Shown here: positions 29,033 through 34,451 of the stretch, in pieces
How the letters are laid out: each line of letters opens with the position of its first letter
Position numbering within the stretch: position 1 is the first letter of the stretch
Source: Candidatus Aerophobota bacterium
GTDB taxonomy: Bacteria > Aerophobota > Aerophobia > Aerophobales > JAGGVN01
DNA length: 35,301 nt
Direction: 5' to 3'
NCBI GenBank assembly: GCA_021158005.1
Contig: JAGGVN010000095.1
Coordinates: 1 to 35,301, forward strand
Notes under the pieces: generated by a model
Databases searched by the model: none
What the model was told of the DNA's origin: nothing
The model's input: only the letters and a program-made list of their open reading frames with translations
Program-made: the position numbers and the translations under genes

Positions 29033-29515
29033 TTGTCTGAAGAAAAGGTATTACTTAGAATAAGGCCTTCATGGAGATCTTATTTAGGGATTTTTATTTG
29101 GGCAGGAATATTTTTTGTTCTTACTACCAGCATATTTGTTCCCCTCCAGCTTTCTATGTTTTTTCAAGTAATTATAGCCTGGTATGTAATTACCGGTATC
29201 TGGGAAAAGATCTCTCTTAAATATACTGTTACTGAAAATAGAATAATTAAAACAGGGGGTCTCATCTTAAAGAAAAATTATGAAATTGCTCTTAGTGATA
29301 TTTCTCTGGTTAAGATTAAACAAACGACTCTTCAGCGAATTTTAAATATTGCCGATCTGGAAGTTGTAATTAAAGGAGGATTGAGTTATTCTCCTGTAGG
29401 AATAAAAATGAAGGGGATAAGGAAAGCAAATAAAATTAAGGAGATTATTGAGAAATATCGAAGAGAAATGAGAAAAGGAGGAGAAAAAAATGAGATTGGG
29501 GCTGGTGACTTATAA
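29033..29515 (+). CDS. bPH2-like (DUF304-type) membrane protein
   Basis: Two N-terminal TM helices then KYTVTENRIIKTGGLILKKNYEIALSDISLVKIKQTTLQRILNIADLEV; TTG start. Confidence 0.75.
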   Translation: MSEEKVLLRIRPSWRSYLGIFIWAGIFFVLTTSIFVPLQLSMFFQVIIAWYVITGIWEKISLKYTVTENRIIKTGGLILKKNYEIALSDISLVKIKQTTLQRILNIADLEVVIKGGLSYSPVGIKMKGIRKANKIKEIIEKYRREMRKGGEKNEIGAGDL

Positions 29516-30257
29516 TTTAGCCAAGGATTGGGATATTCCTACCATTATTGAAAGATGTAAGACTACTGGTTTTGAAGGGGTGGAATTGAGAACTACTCAC
29601 GCTCATAAGGTGGAGGTTAATCTTAGTAAAGAAGAGCGAGAGGAAGTTAAAAAAAGATTTAAAGATTCTCCCGTTGAGCTCGTTGGTTTGGGGAGTGTGT
29701 TTGAATATCATGCTATTGATTCTGAGGAGGTAAGAAGAAATATTGAAGGCACAAAAGAGTATGTGAAATTAGCCAGTGATGTAGGTGCTCCCGGGGTAAA
29801 AGTTCGTCCCAATGGTTTTCAAGATAAGGCCGGTATCCCTCGAGAAAAGACGCTGGAGCAGATTGGTTTAGCCCTGCGGGAATGTGGAGAATTTGCCAGT
29901 AATTTTGGAGTAGAAATTAGGTTAGAAGTCCATGGAGAGGGAACTTGTGAAGTTCCTTATATTCACCGAATTATGGAAATAGCTGATCATAAGAATGTAT
30001 TTGTTTGCTGGAATTCTAATCTTACTGATGTAGATAGCAAAGGTTCAGTAAAGAGTAACTTTAATTTGGTTAAAGATAAGATCCGTTTGGTGCATATTAA
30101 TGAGCTTTATCGGGAAGATTATCCCTGGCGAGAACTCTTTAGTCTTCTTAAAAATGCGGGATATGAAGGTTTTTGCCTGGCAGAAATTCCTGAAAGTCCT
30201 GAGCCAGAGAGATTAATGAGATATTATCGAGCTCTATTTAAGGCTTATACAGAGTAA
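29490..30257 (+). CDS. Sugar phosphate isomerase/epimerase (xylose isomerase-like TIM barrel)
   Basis: MRLGLVTYNLAKDWDIPTIIERCKTTGFEGVELR; EIRLEVHGEGTCEVPYIHRI; IRLVHINELYREDYPWRELFSLLKNAGYEGF; RBS aaaggagg. Confidence 0.85.
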   Translation: MRLGLVTYNLAKDWDIPTIIERCKTTGFEGVELRTTHAHKVEVNLSKEEREEVKKRFKDSPVELVGLGSVFEYHAIDSEEVRRNIEGTKEYVKLASDVGAPGVKVRPNGFQDKAGIPREKTLEQIGLALRECGEFASNFGVEIRLEVHGEGTCEVPYIHRIMEIADHKNVFVCWNSNLTDVDSKGSVKSNFNLVKDKIRLVHINELYREDYPWRELFSLLKNAGYEGFCLAEIPESPEPERLMRYYRALFKAYTE

Positions 30258-30297
30258 TAAGGAGAGAAAAATAAAAAAAAAGGAGAGAAAAATAAAA

Positions 30298-31314
30298 ATG
30301 CAGAACGAAAATATAGAAAAAGAAATAAAATGCGCAGTTTTAGGTTATGGACCGGCTTTTAATATGGGGAAGCGTCATTGCGAGTTGATTAAGGAGACTG
30401 AGGGATTGAGACTCGTATCTATATGTGATTTAAATCCAGAACGCACGGCTACTGCTAAAAAAGATTTTCCTGAGGTTATAACTTACAATAGTGTAGAAGA
30501 GATGTTAAAGAAAGTAGAGCTTGATTTAGTGAGTATAGTTACCCCTCATAATACTCACGCTTTTTTAACTCTCCAGTGTCTGAAAGCCGGTAAACATGTG
30601 GTTGTAGAAAAACCAATGTGTATCACGGTTAAGGAAGCTACAGAAATGATTGAAACTGCAAAAGCTCAAAGGAAAATGCTTTCAGTCTTTCATAATCGCC
30701 GTTTTGATGGAGATTTTTTAGCTATTAAGGAGGTAATAGATAAAGGACTTATTGGTGAGGTTTTTCATATAGAAACAGGTGGGGGAGGATATCATCATCC
30801 GGGATATTGGTGGCGTTCTGATAAAAAAGTTTCTGGAGGAGCTTTTTATGACTGGGGAGCTCATTTTGTCGATTGGGTATTGAATTTAATTCCCAAAAAA
30901 ATGGTAGGAATAGCCGGATTTTTCCATAAGCTTGTCTGGAATGATGTAACCAATGAGGATCATGTAGGGGCTCTTATCCGCTTTGAAAATGGGGCAGTTG
31001 CTGATGTTCAACTTTCTAATATCGATAGAATAGGGAGGCCTCGCTGGCGTATTCTGGGAACGAAAGGGGCTATTCTTGATAAGGGGGGAGGAAGTTTTAA
31101 GGTAAATACAGAAATAGAAGGTATTCCTGCAAGTATGGAGGTTAAATATAAAGAGACCGATTGGAGAAGGTATTATCGGAATATTGCCCGTCACCTGCTT
31201 TTCAGGGAGAAGTTAGAGATAACTCCTCAGTCTGCGCGCCGGGTAATAGCTGTATTTGAAACAGCGGAAAAAGCTGCTAAGAGCGGAAAGATAGAACCCG
31301 TCCCCTACGAATGA
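30298..31314 (+). CDS. Gfo/Idh/MocA family oxidoreductase
   Basis: CAVLGYGPAFNMGKRH, VTPHNTHAFLTLQCLKAGKHVVVEKPMC, GGGAFYDWGAHFVDW-like motif (SGGAFYDWGAHFVDW). Confidence 0.92.
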   Translation: MQNENIEKEIKCAVLGYGPAFNMGKRHCELIKETEGLRLVSICDLNPERTATAKKDFPEVITYNSVEEMLKKVELDLVSIVTPHNTHAFLTLQCLKAGKHVVVEKPMCITVKEATEMIETAKAQRKMLSVFHNRRFDGDFLAIKEVIDKGLIGEVFHIETGGGGYHHPGYWWRSDKKVSGGAFYDWGAHFVDWVLNLIPKKMVGIAGFFHKLVWNDVTNEDHVGALIRFENGAVADVQLSNIDRIGRPRWRILGTKGAILDKGGGSFKVNTEIEGIPASMEVKYKETDWRRYYRNIARHLLFREKLEITPQSARRVIAVFETAEKAAKSGKIEPVPYE

Positions 31315-31375: not shown

Positions 31376-32398
31376 TTAAATTTCTATAAGGACTTTCATT
31401 ACATTTTCTTTTTTCTTTAAAATAAGTTCAAAAGCTTTCTTTATATCTTTTAACTTAAAGGAGTGAGTAATAAGGGGTTGGACCTGGATTTTCTTTTTTT
31501 GAATAAGGTCTATTGCTTCTTCGAAATCGTCTCTTATATACATTAAACTTCCGATGAGCTCTAATTCTCTATCTCCTATATAAGCAAGATTTACTCGGGG
31601 ATTTTCTTCAGGGACTCCCACAATCATAATTTTTGTTCCCTTTCGAGCAATTTGAATAGCCTCAGATAAAGTTTCTTCTCTTCCCACGCACTCGTATATT
31701 AAATCTATTCCATTTTCACCGTAAGTTTCCCGGATAAATTCTACCAAATCTCGGGAAACGGAGTTTACTATTTTATCGGCTCCTAACTCCTTGGCTTTTT
31801 TTAATCTATAATCGAGGAGGTCGGTAATAATTATTTCTCCTGCTCCAGATACTTTAGCTACCTGCATAATCAACAGGCCAATGGGTCCTGCTCCTAAAAT
31901 TAAGACTTTATCACCTATCTTTTGTTTTGATTTTCTCACCGCATGAACCGCTACTGCTGTTGGTTCTATTAAAGCTCCCTCCTCAAAAGAAATCTCCCGG
32001 GGAAGCTTTATTACCTTATTTTGAGGCACAGCAATATATTGAGCAAAAGCACCATTATAACCTACACAACCGATAACTTTAAGGTAATTGCAAATATTAT
32101 ATCTCCCATGGAGGCAGTTGTAGCATTTTCCGCAAACTATATTGGGTTCAACGGAGACTCTCTCTTCTTTATGAAAATTTTTAACTTTCTTTCCCGTTTG
32201 AGAAATTATTCCCGAAAATTCATGTCCTAAAACAATAGGAGGATGCACAAAGGGATGTTTCCCTTTATAGGAGTGAATATCCGATCCGCAAATTCCGCAA
32301 TATTTTACCTTGATAAGTACTTCATTTTCTCTTACGGAAGGGATTTCTACTTCTTCCAATATTACCTTTTCAGGTTTTACTAAATTTGCTTGGAGCAT
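31376..32398 (-). CDS. Zinc-dependent medium-chain alcohol/polyol dehydrogenase
   Basis: CGICGSDIHSYKGKHP, GHEFSG, structural Zn CGKCYNCLHGRYNIC, VLILGAGPIGLL. Confidence 0.92.
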   Translation of the reverse strand: MLQANLVKPEKVILEEVEIPSVRENEVLIKVKYCGICGSDIHSYKGKHPFVHPPIVLGHEFSGIISQTGKKVKNFHKEERVSVEPNIVCGKCYNCLHGRYNICNYLKVIGCVGYNGAFAQYIAVPQNKVIKLPREISFEEGALIEPTAVAVHAVRKSKQKIGDKVLILGAGPIGLLIMQVAKVSGAGEIIITDLLDYRLKKAKELGADKIVNSVSRDLVEFIRETYGENGIDLIYECVGREETLSEAIQIARKGTKIMIVGVPEENPRVNLAYIGDRELELIGSLMYIRDDFEEAIDLIQKKKIQVQPLITHSFKLKDIKKAFELILKKKENVMKVLIEI

Positions 32399-32407
32399 TT
32401 TTTCTCC

Positions 32408-33427
32408 TCACTTTTCTGGCTTCATTAAAATTTTTATTCTCTCTTTGTTCTTTCGGTAAACCTGCATAGCTTCATCAAGCTCATTCAGTTTGAATTTATG
32501 AGTAATTAATTCTTTTACATTTACCCTTCCTTCTGCTAAGAGTTTAATAGCTCTTTCAGTAGTATAAGGATTAACAAAGCATCCTTTAAGAGTGATTTCA
32601 TTTCGATAGATATAAAAGGGATTTACTTTTACTTCTGCTTGAGGGTCAGCTACTCCAAACCAGATTACTCTCCCCCCCGGCTCTACCAGATTTAAAGATT
32701 CAACCTGAGTAGAAGGATTTCCAATACATTCTATGACTACTTCTGCTTTTTCTTTAAGAAAAGTTTTAATCTCTTTTTCTATCTTTACCTTAGTGGGGTC
32801 CAAAGATAAGTTAGCTCCCAATTTCAGAGCTAATTCTCTTCTTCTTTTTACCGGATCAGTAACTACAATCTTATCAGCTCCAGAAATTCTTGCTAATTGT
32901 AAGATAATGAGACCAATAGGGCCTGCCCCCAGAATAACTACCGAATGTCCTGGTTTAATTTCTGCTAAATCTATTCCATGAAGAGAGCACGAAAGTGGTT
33001 CTGTAAAAGAAGCTGTCTCTAAATCTAACTTTTCCGGAAGGTGATAAACTGAAGATTCGTTTACCTTTACATATTCAGCGAATCCTCCATCATAATTAAC
33101 TCCCAATCCCGGAATGGCCACACAAAAATTTTCCTTTCCATTTCGGCAATACTTGCATTTTCCACAAACGGTATTGGGATTAACAGTTACTCTGTCTCCT
33201 TTTTTAAAATTTTTTATTTTCTTTCCTACTTCTTCAATTATTCCTGAAAATTCATGGCCAATAATTACCGGGAAATTAGCCGGAAAAGTTCCTTCGTAAA
33301 TATGTACATCTGTTCCACAGATGCCACAGGTATCTACTCTTATGAGAACATCATCTTCTTTTATCCTGGGAATGGGAACTTCTTTTAACTTATACTTACC
33401 CCTCTCTTCGAATACAATTGCCCTCAT
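32408..33427 (-). CDS. Zinc-dependent medium-chain alcohol/polyol dehydrogenase (paralog of the neighbouring gene)
   Basis: CGICGTDVHIYEGTFP, GHEFSG, CGKCKYCRNGKENFC, VVILGAGPIGLI. Confidence 0.92.
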   Translation of the reverse strand: MRAIVFEERGKYKLKEVPIPRIKEDDVLIRVDTCGICGTDVHIYEGTFPANFPVIIGHEFSGIIEEVGKKIKNFKKGDRVTVNPNTVCGKCKYCRNGKENFCVAIPGLGVNYDGGFAEYVKVNESSVYHLPEKLDLETASFTEPLSCSLHGIDLAEIKPGHSVVILGAGPIGLIILQLARISGADKIVVTDPVKRRRELALKLGANLSLDPTKVKIEKEIKTFLKEKAEVVIECIGNPSTQVESLNLVEPGGRVIWFGVADPQAEVKVNPFYIYRNEITLKGCFVNPYTTERAIKLLAEGRVNVKELITHKFKLNELDEAMQVYRKNKERIKILMKPEK

Positions 33428-33476: not shown

Positions 33477-34451
33477 TTAAGCCAGTGAAGCAAGGCGCTT
33501 GATGCGCTTCAACATATTCGGATGAGTGGTAAAAAGCTCCATCATTCTCTCTGTTCCCCTTATCTTTATCTTTTTATGCCTTAACTCCCAGAGTTCACTC
33601 TGGTCTATTGTTCCACTTAAATCTCTGTCCACTTCTTTTAGTTCCTGGATTTCATTTTGAGCCCGGGCAATATCATTTAAGAAAAAAGCCCTCACTCCCT
33701 GGACTCTTCTTAATTCTTCTTTTCCTCGAGCACTTCTTCGAATTTGGGCCGAGCCATAAACTAATTTATAAAGAGCTGAGGCTAAGTAATGGGGGGAATT
33801 TCCTATTTTTACACTTCCCTGGTCAGCATAATATTCTCGAATTCGAGATGCGTAGAGGACTAAAAGATTGGTTAAAAAGTAGAGTAAGAAAGCTACCAGA
33901 CCAATTAGAGCAGCATAACCACCTTCTTCTCTTCTTCTATAAAACATTCCTCCCCATAGTAATCTCCAGGATAGCCAGTAAAGCATCAGAGGAATTACTG
34001 AAAGTAGAGTGATAATTATCATATCTCGATGTCTAAGATGAGAGATCTCATGCCCTAAGACTGCCTTCAACTCATCCTTGTTTAATAACTTCCGGATTCC
34101 CTCGGTAATACAAACTCTCCCATCCCTTATTGTCCTTCCAAAGGCGAAGGCATTAGGAATAGAGATTTGAGAAATTCCTACTTTTGGCTTGGGAATATTA
34201 GATCTTTCAGCCAGTTCTTTTACCATCTGATGAAGTTCTGGTTCTTCATTTTCGGAGACCCATCTTACTCTCATTAACATTGAAACTATGGAAGGTCCAA
34301 TTAAATATTGAAAACCTACAAAGATTAAAGCCAGGACAAGGTAGATTCCTACATTTCCTATTCCAAAGTAACTCCCGATCCCAGTAATTACTCCGTAGAG
34401 TATCCCGAACATCAGGGCAACTAATAACCACATTTTAACTTGAAGCCCCAT
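33477..34451 (-). CDS. htpX: HtpX-like M48 zinc metalloprotease with an internal EF-hand-like loop
   Basis: VLGHEISHLRHRDM zinc motif, IREYYADQGSVKI, THPNMLKRIKRL C-terminus; DRDLSGTIDQSE insert. Confidence 0.92.
   Translation of the reverse strand: MGLQVKMWLLVALMFGILYGVITGIGSYFGIGNVGIYLVLALIFVGFQYLIGPSIVSMLMRVRWVSENEEPELHQMVKELAERSNIPKPKVGISQISIPNAFAFGRTIRDGRVCITEGIRKLLNKDELKAVLGHEISHLRHRDMIIITLLSVIPLMLYWLSWRLLWGGMFYRRREEGGYAALIGLVAFLLYFLTNLLVLYASRIREYYADQGSVKIGNSPHYLASALYKLVYGSAQIRRSARGKEELRRVQGVRAFFLNDIARAQNEIQELKEVDRDLSGTIDQSELWELRHKKIKIRGTERMMELFTTHPNMLKRIKRLASLA

Follow-up and report, generated by a model that had tools for sequence, protein, structure and literature searches.

An HtpX-like protease encoded in the window (the whole stretch of 35,301 nucleotides analysed here, DNA of a deep-branching, uncultured bacterium) carries an insert of about 40 residues between the helix supplying the third zinc ligand and the HPx4R plug, and conservation, profile searches and structural modelling strongly support its identification as a single canonical EF-hand. 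The predicted EF-hand is built into the catalytic domain, adjoins the gating element of M48 proteases, and has been preserved across two domains of life. Protease and EF-hand are each known, but their combination, the location ahead of the plug, the rigid conservation and the cross-domain spread appear undescribed in the open-access literature. Searches of open-access full text turned up no EF-hand described for HtpX or other M48 proteins. Intracellular EF-hand enzymes are, to our knowledge, scarce in prokaryotes, and the control of prokaryotic enzymes by cytosolic Ca2+ is still debated.

The protease and its predicted EF-hand

The gene and the relevant segments of its product, in the order of the protein, are the following:

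33477..34451, minus strand: open reading frame for a 324-residue HtpX-like M48 zinc metalloprotease (match to Pfam PF01435 at 141.1 bits against a cut-off of 20.3)
34368..34445, minus strand: predicted transmembrane helix 1, residues 3-28 (AlphaFold2 model, hydropathy)
34275..34352, minus strand: predicted transmembrane helix 2, residues 34-59 (AlphaFold2 model, hydropathy)
34038..34052, minus strand: HEISH zinc-binding and catalytic motif, residues 134-138 (sequence; H134, E135 and H138 invariant in the family alignment A1)
33942..34025, minus strand: predicted hydrophobic helix 3, residues 143-170 (AlphaFold2 model, hydropathy)
33807..33923, minus strand: predicted hydrophobic helix 4, residues 177-215, continuing into REYYAD (AlphaFold2 model, hydropathy)
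33822..33839, minus strand: REYYAD with the third zinc ligand E206, residues 205-210 (R205, E206, Y208, A209 and D210 invariant in A1)
33636..33671, minus strand: predicted EF-hand E-helix, residues 261-272 (AlphaFold2 model, pLDDT about 80; conserved E267 and L271)
33594..33629, minus strand: 12-residue EF-hand loop DRDLSGTIDQSE, residues 275-286 (exact translation, conservation, model)
33576..33602, minus strand: predicted EF-hand F-helix, residues 284-292, from loop position 10 (AlphaFold2 model)
33504..33527, minus strand: THPNMLKR, the M48 HPx4R active-site plug motif, residues 309-316 (sequence; plug as defined in BepA, PMC7950410)

The product is most likely a zinc-dependent M48 protease that is integral to the membrane and belongs to the HtpX type. 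Peptidase_M48 (PF01435) is matched by all 20 clade members scanned, and the zinc ligands, THP and R316 are invariant across A1, the family alignment and profile of the clade. As in E. coli HtpX, the 3cqb domain and Haloferax HtpX, four hydrophobic helices, HExxH, a third ligand in an R-E-Y/F context and a C-terminal THPxxxxR are present. None of the NCBIfam HtpX equivalog cut-offs is reached (PRK02391 comes closest, 211 vs 341; PRK01265 gives 190.5 vs 275), and the protein is therefore labelled HtpX-like rather than a certified HtpX equivalog. Members of the HtpX family have an N-terminal transmembrane hairpin and cytosolic catalytic and C-terminal regions (PMC9263693); by analogy, the EF-hand site would face the cytosol. 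In the genome profile search the window protein is the sole strong M48 match of its own genome (141.5 bits). A second, short M48-like stretch of the same genome (G000:C143:24010-24222) scores 22 bits and holds one in-frame TAG. The BlaR1 peptidase M56 model PF05569 is also matched by the 20 members scanned (33 bits in the window protein, cut-off 31), which probably reflects a common gluzincin membrane-protease architecture.

The preliminary description had placed an EF-hand-type loop at 33594-33629, within an HtpX-like protease with intact HExxH and REYYAD motifs and just before a conserved C-terminal segment. Exact translation of the minus strand gives DRDLSGTIDQSE at residues 275-286, HEISH and REYYAD begin at residues 134 and 205 with their zinc ligands invariant in A1, and THPNMLKR follows at residue 309; the M48 score, the ligands kept in 72 of 72 complete clade members and the helix-loop-helix of the model strongly support the reading. 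The loop has ligands at positions 1, 3, 5, 9 and 12, glycine at position 6 and a hydrophobic residue at position 8, as canonical 12-residue loops do. In 200,000 shuffled versions of the window protein a relaxed EF pattern, D.[DNS].[DNS]G.[ILV]...[ED], occurs 51 times and the exact pattern never, and the relaxed pattern is absent from 206 neighbouring proteins (55,039 aa) encoded at related loci.

The domain search proposed in the preliminary description succeeds for the protease (141.1 bits against a PF01435 gathering cut-off of 20.3) and fails for the loop: on the window sequence alone Pfam EF-hand_5 gives 13.8 bits, below its 25.9 gathering cut-off, so that automatic annotation misses this EF-hand. 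When members are scanned one at a time, EF-hand_5 and EF-hand_1 detect 14 of 20 apiece, 1.2e-4 at best; hence standard annotation mostly overlooks the element. The signal emerges when the family is taken together. A profile of the insert (39 columns), searched against PDB sequences, retrieves calmodulin on top (7.5e-10), along with CDPK, centrin and lanmodulin; calmodulin, CDPK and centrin share with the insert a 12-residue DxDxSGxIDxxE loop set between helices. The full-length profile retrieves HtpX (3cqb, 6.7e-16), Ste24 (2.1e-7) and, via the insert, calmodulin (0.002).

An AlphaFold2 model built from 20 sequences, with no ion, has a pLDDT of 82 and a pTM of 0.81. The helix-loop-helix anticipated in the preliminary description is predicted, with helices at 261-272 and 284-292 and the F-helix starting from loop position 10, which is the canonical EF-hand register. 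With the whole model, Foldseek matches Ste24p, ZMPSTE24, HtpX and BepA; the significant matches are M48 or related metalloproteases only, as expected of a whole-chain comparison. The 53-residue hairpin folded alone is predicted with low confidence (pLDDT 60), and its Foldseek matches to calmodulin and calcineurin B (E 4-9) are non-significant. The M48A CAAX proteases Ste24 and ZMPSTE24, which provide the top Foldseek matches (4il3, 2ypt), share the membrane-embedded M48 fold. They are eukaryotic and form a seven-helix chamber, and we know of no EF-hand reported in them. E. coli BepA (6ait, Foldseek E 0.03) shares the catalytic fold and the plug motif, but is periplasmic, carries TPRs, and has been described without an EF-hand before the plug (PMC7950410). 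Canonical EF-hand proteins, and the bacterial EfhP and CaBP, have at least two loops, and EfhP and CaBP are described as EF-hand proteins and not as proteases; the window protein has one loop, inside the catalytic domain of a protease.

Conservation and distribution of the EF-hand form

The strict loop is kept by all members of the clade having a complete C-terminus, 69 of 69 distinct proteins plus three of three found later (72/72), with the ligand set D1, D/N3, S/D/N5, G6, I/L/V8, E/D12. In the 71 loops aligned, D1 and G6 are invariant (71/71 each), position 3 varies only between D and N, position 5 only among S, D and N, and position 12 is E in 67 loops and D in 4. Entropy at the non-ligand positions 2, 10 and 11 is 3.0-3.2 bits. 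Loops were extracted with a strict pattern; every complete clade member passed it and none failed, so that the counts are not a selection artefact. The Asp/Glu positions singled out in the preliminary description are thus conserved within the clade, and fixed ligands next to free non-ligand positions are, at the level of sequence, the signature of a selection for metal coordination which goes beyond the hairpin.

The EF-hand form is rare and patchy, yet it crosses Bacteria and Archaea, Asgard included. In a genome-collection scan, Aerophobetes, Chloroflexi/Dehalococcoidia, Atribacteria and Altiarchaeales yielded relatives at 57-75% identity, and Jordarchaeia a single one at 45%; taken as a whole, the clade includes Aerophobota, Atribacterota, Dehalococcoidia, Altiarchaeales and Asgard archaea. 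The nearest named relative of the window's genome is Candidatus Aerophobetes Ae_b3b (NJBP01000012), of the same order. Surveys with the A1 family profile separate the EF clade from other M48 proteins by a clean score gap. In Dehalococcoidia (the class of G065), as an example, 33 of 294 genomes have a match above 400 bits, and the next score is 213. Clade matches occur in 3 of 17 genomes of Aerophobota, the window's phylum, in 7 of 50 Atribacterota (the phylum of G064), in 15 of 121 genomes of an archaeal spread around G069, in 7 of 228 genomes (at least 390 bits) of the phylum of G070, which includes the Jordarchaeia genome, and in 6 of 290 genomes of a bacterial spread, three of them from the window's order.

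A few members deserve a separate mention. One, L106 (G107:C19:76908-77858), has a single TAG in frame some 25 residues ahead of its EF loop; past this stop, loop and plug stay in frame; a pseudogene, a sequencing error or recoding are all possible. Two proteins from genomes titled Chloroflexi BS517 (L034) and Patescibacteria (L035) nest in the 12-row subclade of the window, as a result of either recent transfer or misbinned or misnamed public MAGs.

The preliminary description held that classical HtpX has no such site, and this is true of every canonical HtpX aligned. In the HtpX of the sampled genomes REYYAD and THP are 54-79 residues apart, mostly 60-65, with no insert, whereas in EF forms, the window group included, the spacing is mostly 98-105 residues. 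The idea that the insert is common to all HtpX is rejected, as it is carried by 0 of the canonical HtpX aligned. In the proteins examined, the loop-bearing insert lies at this one site and nowhere else, and it recurs there in further Asgard M48 groups. Another M48 group from archaea, chiefly Asgard, hosts DLDKDGTLDEKE-type loops there (L127, L139, L144, L148-L156, L158 and L203), in multiple copies per genome in some cases, for instance G485 and G488. Two very divergent Asgard M48 proteins (L159, L160), set apart from the remaining EF groups by a long branch, carry loops of the DVDRSG[SA]LDT[DE]E type, and an independent gain is possible. Two archaeal M48 proteins (L204, G638:C26; L205, G645:C51) have tandem EF loops ahead of STHP, at a spacing of 21 residues, which may represent a duplication that gave an EF-hand pair. 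In five proteins (L125, L126 and L128-L130) a helical insert of similar length lacks the ligands and the catalytic motifs are intact. Inserts of EF length without ligands are also present in Asgard M48 proteins with frames of 562-580 aa (L130-L136, L138, L140-L143 and L145-L147), which, as read in L131, extend past the plug by a hydrophobic C-terminal stretch of some 230 residues.

In a quick tree of 143 proteins, computed with the insert columns excluded and having some long branches, the main clade consists of EF rows throughout (58 of 58) and has an SH-aLRT support of 99. The EF label requires at least 4 changes on this tree, vs a mean of 47.8 when shuffled, and starred branches force only 2; the tree cannot tell gain from loss, and single taxa are possibly affected by MAG binning errors. 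Mutual exclusion of EF form and canonical HtpX was considered for Aerophobota, where 3 of 17 genomes have just the EF form, 6 have just the ordinary one and no genome combines the two; it was discounted because genomes are too few and some archaea carry both forms.

A putative Ca2+ site next to the active-site plug

In BepA the HPx4R motif of M48 proteases acts as an active-site plug gating the zinc site: the plug histidine is a fourth zinc ligand and takes the place of the substrate, function requires the plug to be mobile, and the motif is kept throughout PF01435, HtpX included (PMC7950410). In the window protein HPx4R corresponds to H310-R316. Residue 286 is the last of the EF loop, 23 residues before T309, and the F-helix extends until 292. 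Since loop and F-helix lead directly to HPx4R, the hairpin is well placed to set the plug. According to the reading we prefer, Ca2+ occupancy of the 275-286 loop would fold and lock the E-loop-F hairpin; as the hairpin continues straight into THPNMLKR, Ca2+ loading would determine how the plug sits above the zinc, and cleavage of membrane-protein substrates would become Ca2+-dependent, Ca2+ being either an obligate cofactor or a signal entering the cell upon membrane damage. That the bound metal is Ca2+, that it acts on the plug, and what triggers it in the cell are what we infer, and that the predicted site sets the plug in this manner has, in our judgement, slightly less than an even chance of being right. 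The broader proposal of a Ca2+-gated family of membrane proteases in anaerobic, mostly uncultured bacteria and archaea, Asgard included, is more doubtful. Here loading of the EF-hand would displace the HPx4R plug, and cytosolic Ca2+, having entered for instance where the membrane is damaged, would take the plug off the zinc and start proteolytic clean-up. If true, membrane damage would be coupled directly to proteolytic clean-up, and prokaryotes would have an EF-hand-controlled intracellular protease.

A constitutive structural site, always filled with Ca2+, whose task would be to stabilise the C-terminal hairpin in an HtpX with a longer insert and not to regulate activity, is a serious competitor, and may well be correct. 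Conservation of the ligands is equally compatible with structural use. Sensors are usually paired EF-hands, and proteins of the clade carry one loop, tandem loops being found only in L204 and L205; the single EF-hand makes a structural site nearly as likely as a switch. The minimum for Ca2+-dependent activation is indeed a pair of EF-hands (PMC3997525). A wider EF-hand system in the window's genome is rejected, as an EF-hand_7 search finds no other protein there, and no conserved gene neighbourhood suggests a regulatory circuit; both results suit a structural role. Against it, the EF-hand adjoins the one M48 segment known to gate activity, and a cytosolic site permanently occupied at resting Ca2+ levels demands high affinity. 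Two points speak against the plug reading: resting cytosolic Ca2+ is low in bacteria, and the affinity of a lone EF-hand may be insufficient; and the hairpin can work without metal, as the ligand-less inserts of L125, L126 and L128-L130 go along with intact catalytic motifs.

Less probable, though not negligible, is a conserved hairpin that serves Mg2+ binding, docking of substrates or partners, or the pairing of two EF-hands in a dimer, rather than Ca2+ binding. Aspartate at EF position 12 tends toward Mg2+ preference and is found in 4 of 71 loops, but the other 67 have glutamate, the bidentate Ca2+ ligand. Pairing across a dimer would resolve the problem of the single EF-hand, and L204 and L205 have evolved an internal pair; docking, on the other hand, leaves the invariance of exactly the chelating residues unexplained. 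A coincidental acidic loop without metal-binding role, to which the single-sequence Pfam score well under cut-off (13.8 vs 25.9 bits) could point, is scarcely credible and is refuted, for practical purposes, by ligands kept in 72 of 72 members over two domains of life while non-ligand positions vary freely, by the shuffles (51/200,000), and by the calmodulin match of the insert profile (7.5e-10).

Ca2+ control of membrane-protein proteolysis becomes a question testable by two point mutations. The M48 field gains a natural handle on the positioning of the HPx4R plug, and Asgard archaea a class of EF-hand proteins.

Genomic surroundings

Across 25 loci no neighbour gene recurs in most; common neighbours are seen only in small groups of close relatives. 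As only the protease recurs across most of the loci, the gene is read as stand-alone, pointing to a housekeeping-like function. In the window, rpsO and then an open reading frame resembling pnp, by its reading, are divergent from the protease gene. Directly downstream of it, on the same strand, lie two adjacent zinc-type alcohol/sorbitol-dehydrogenase-like genes (31376-33427, minus strand), near which a sugar-isomerase-like and an oxidoreductase-like open reading frame are found (29490-31314).
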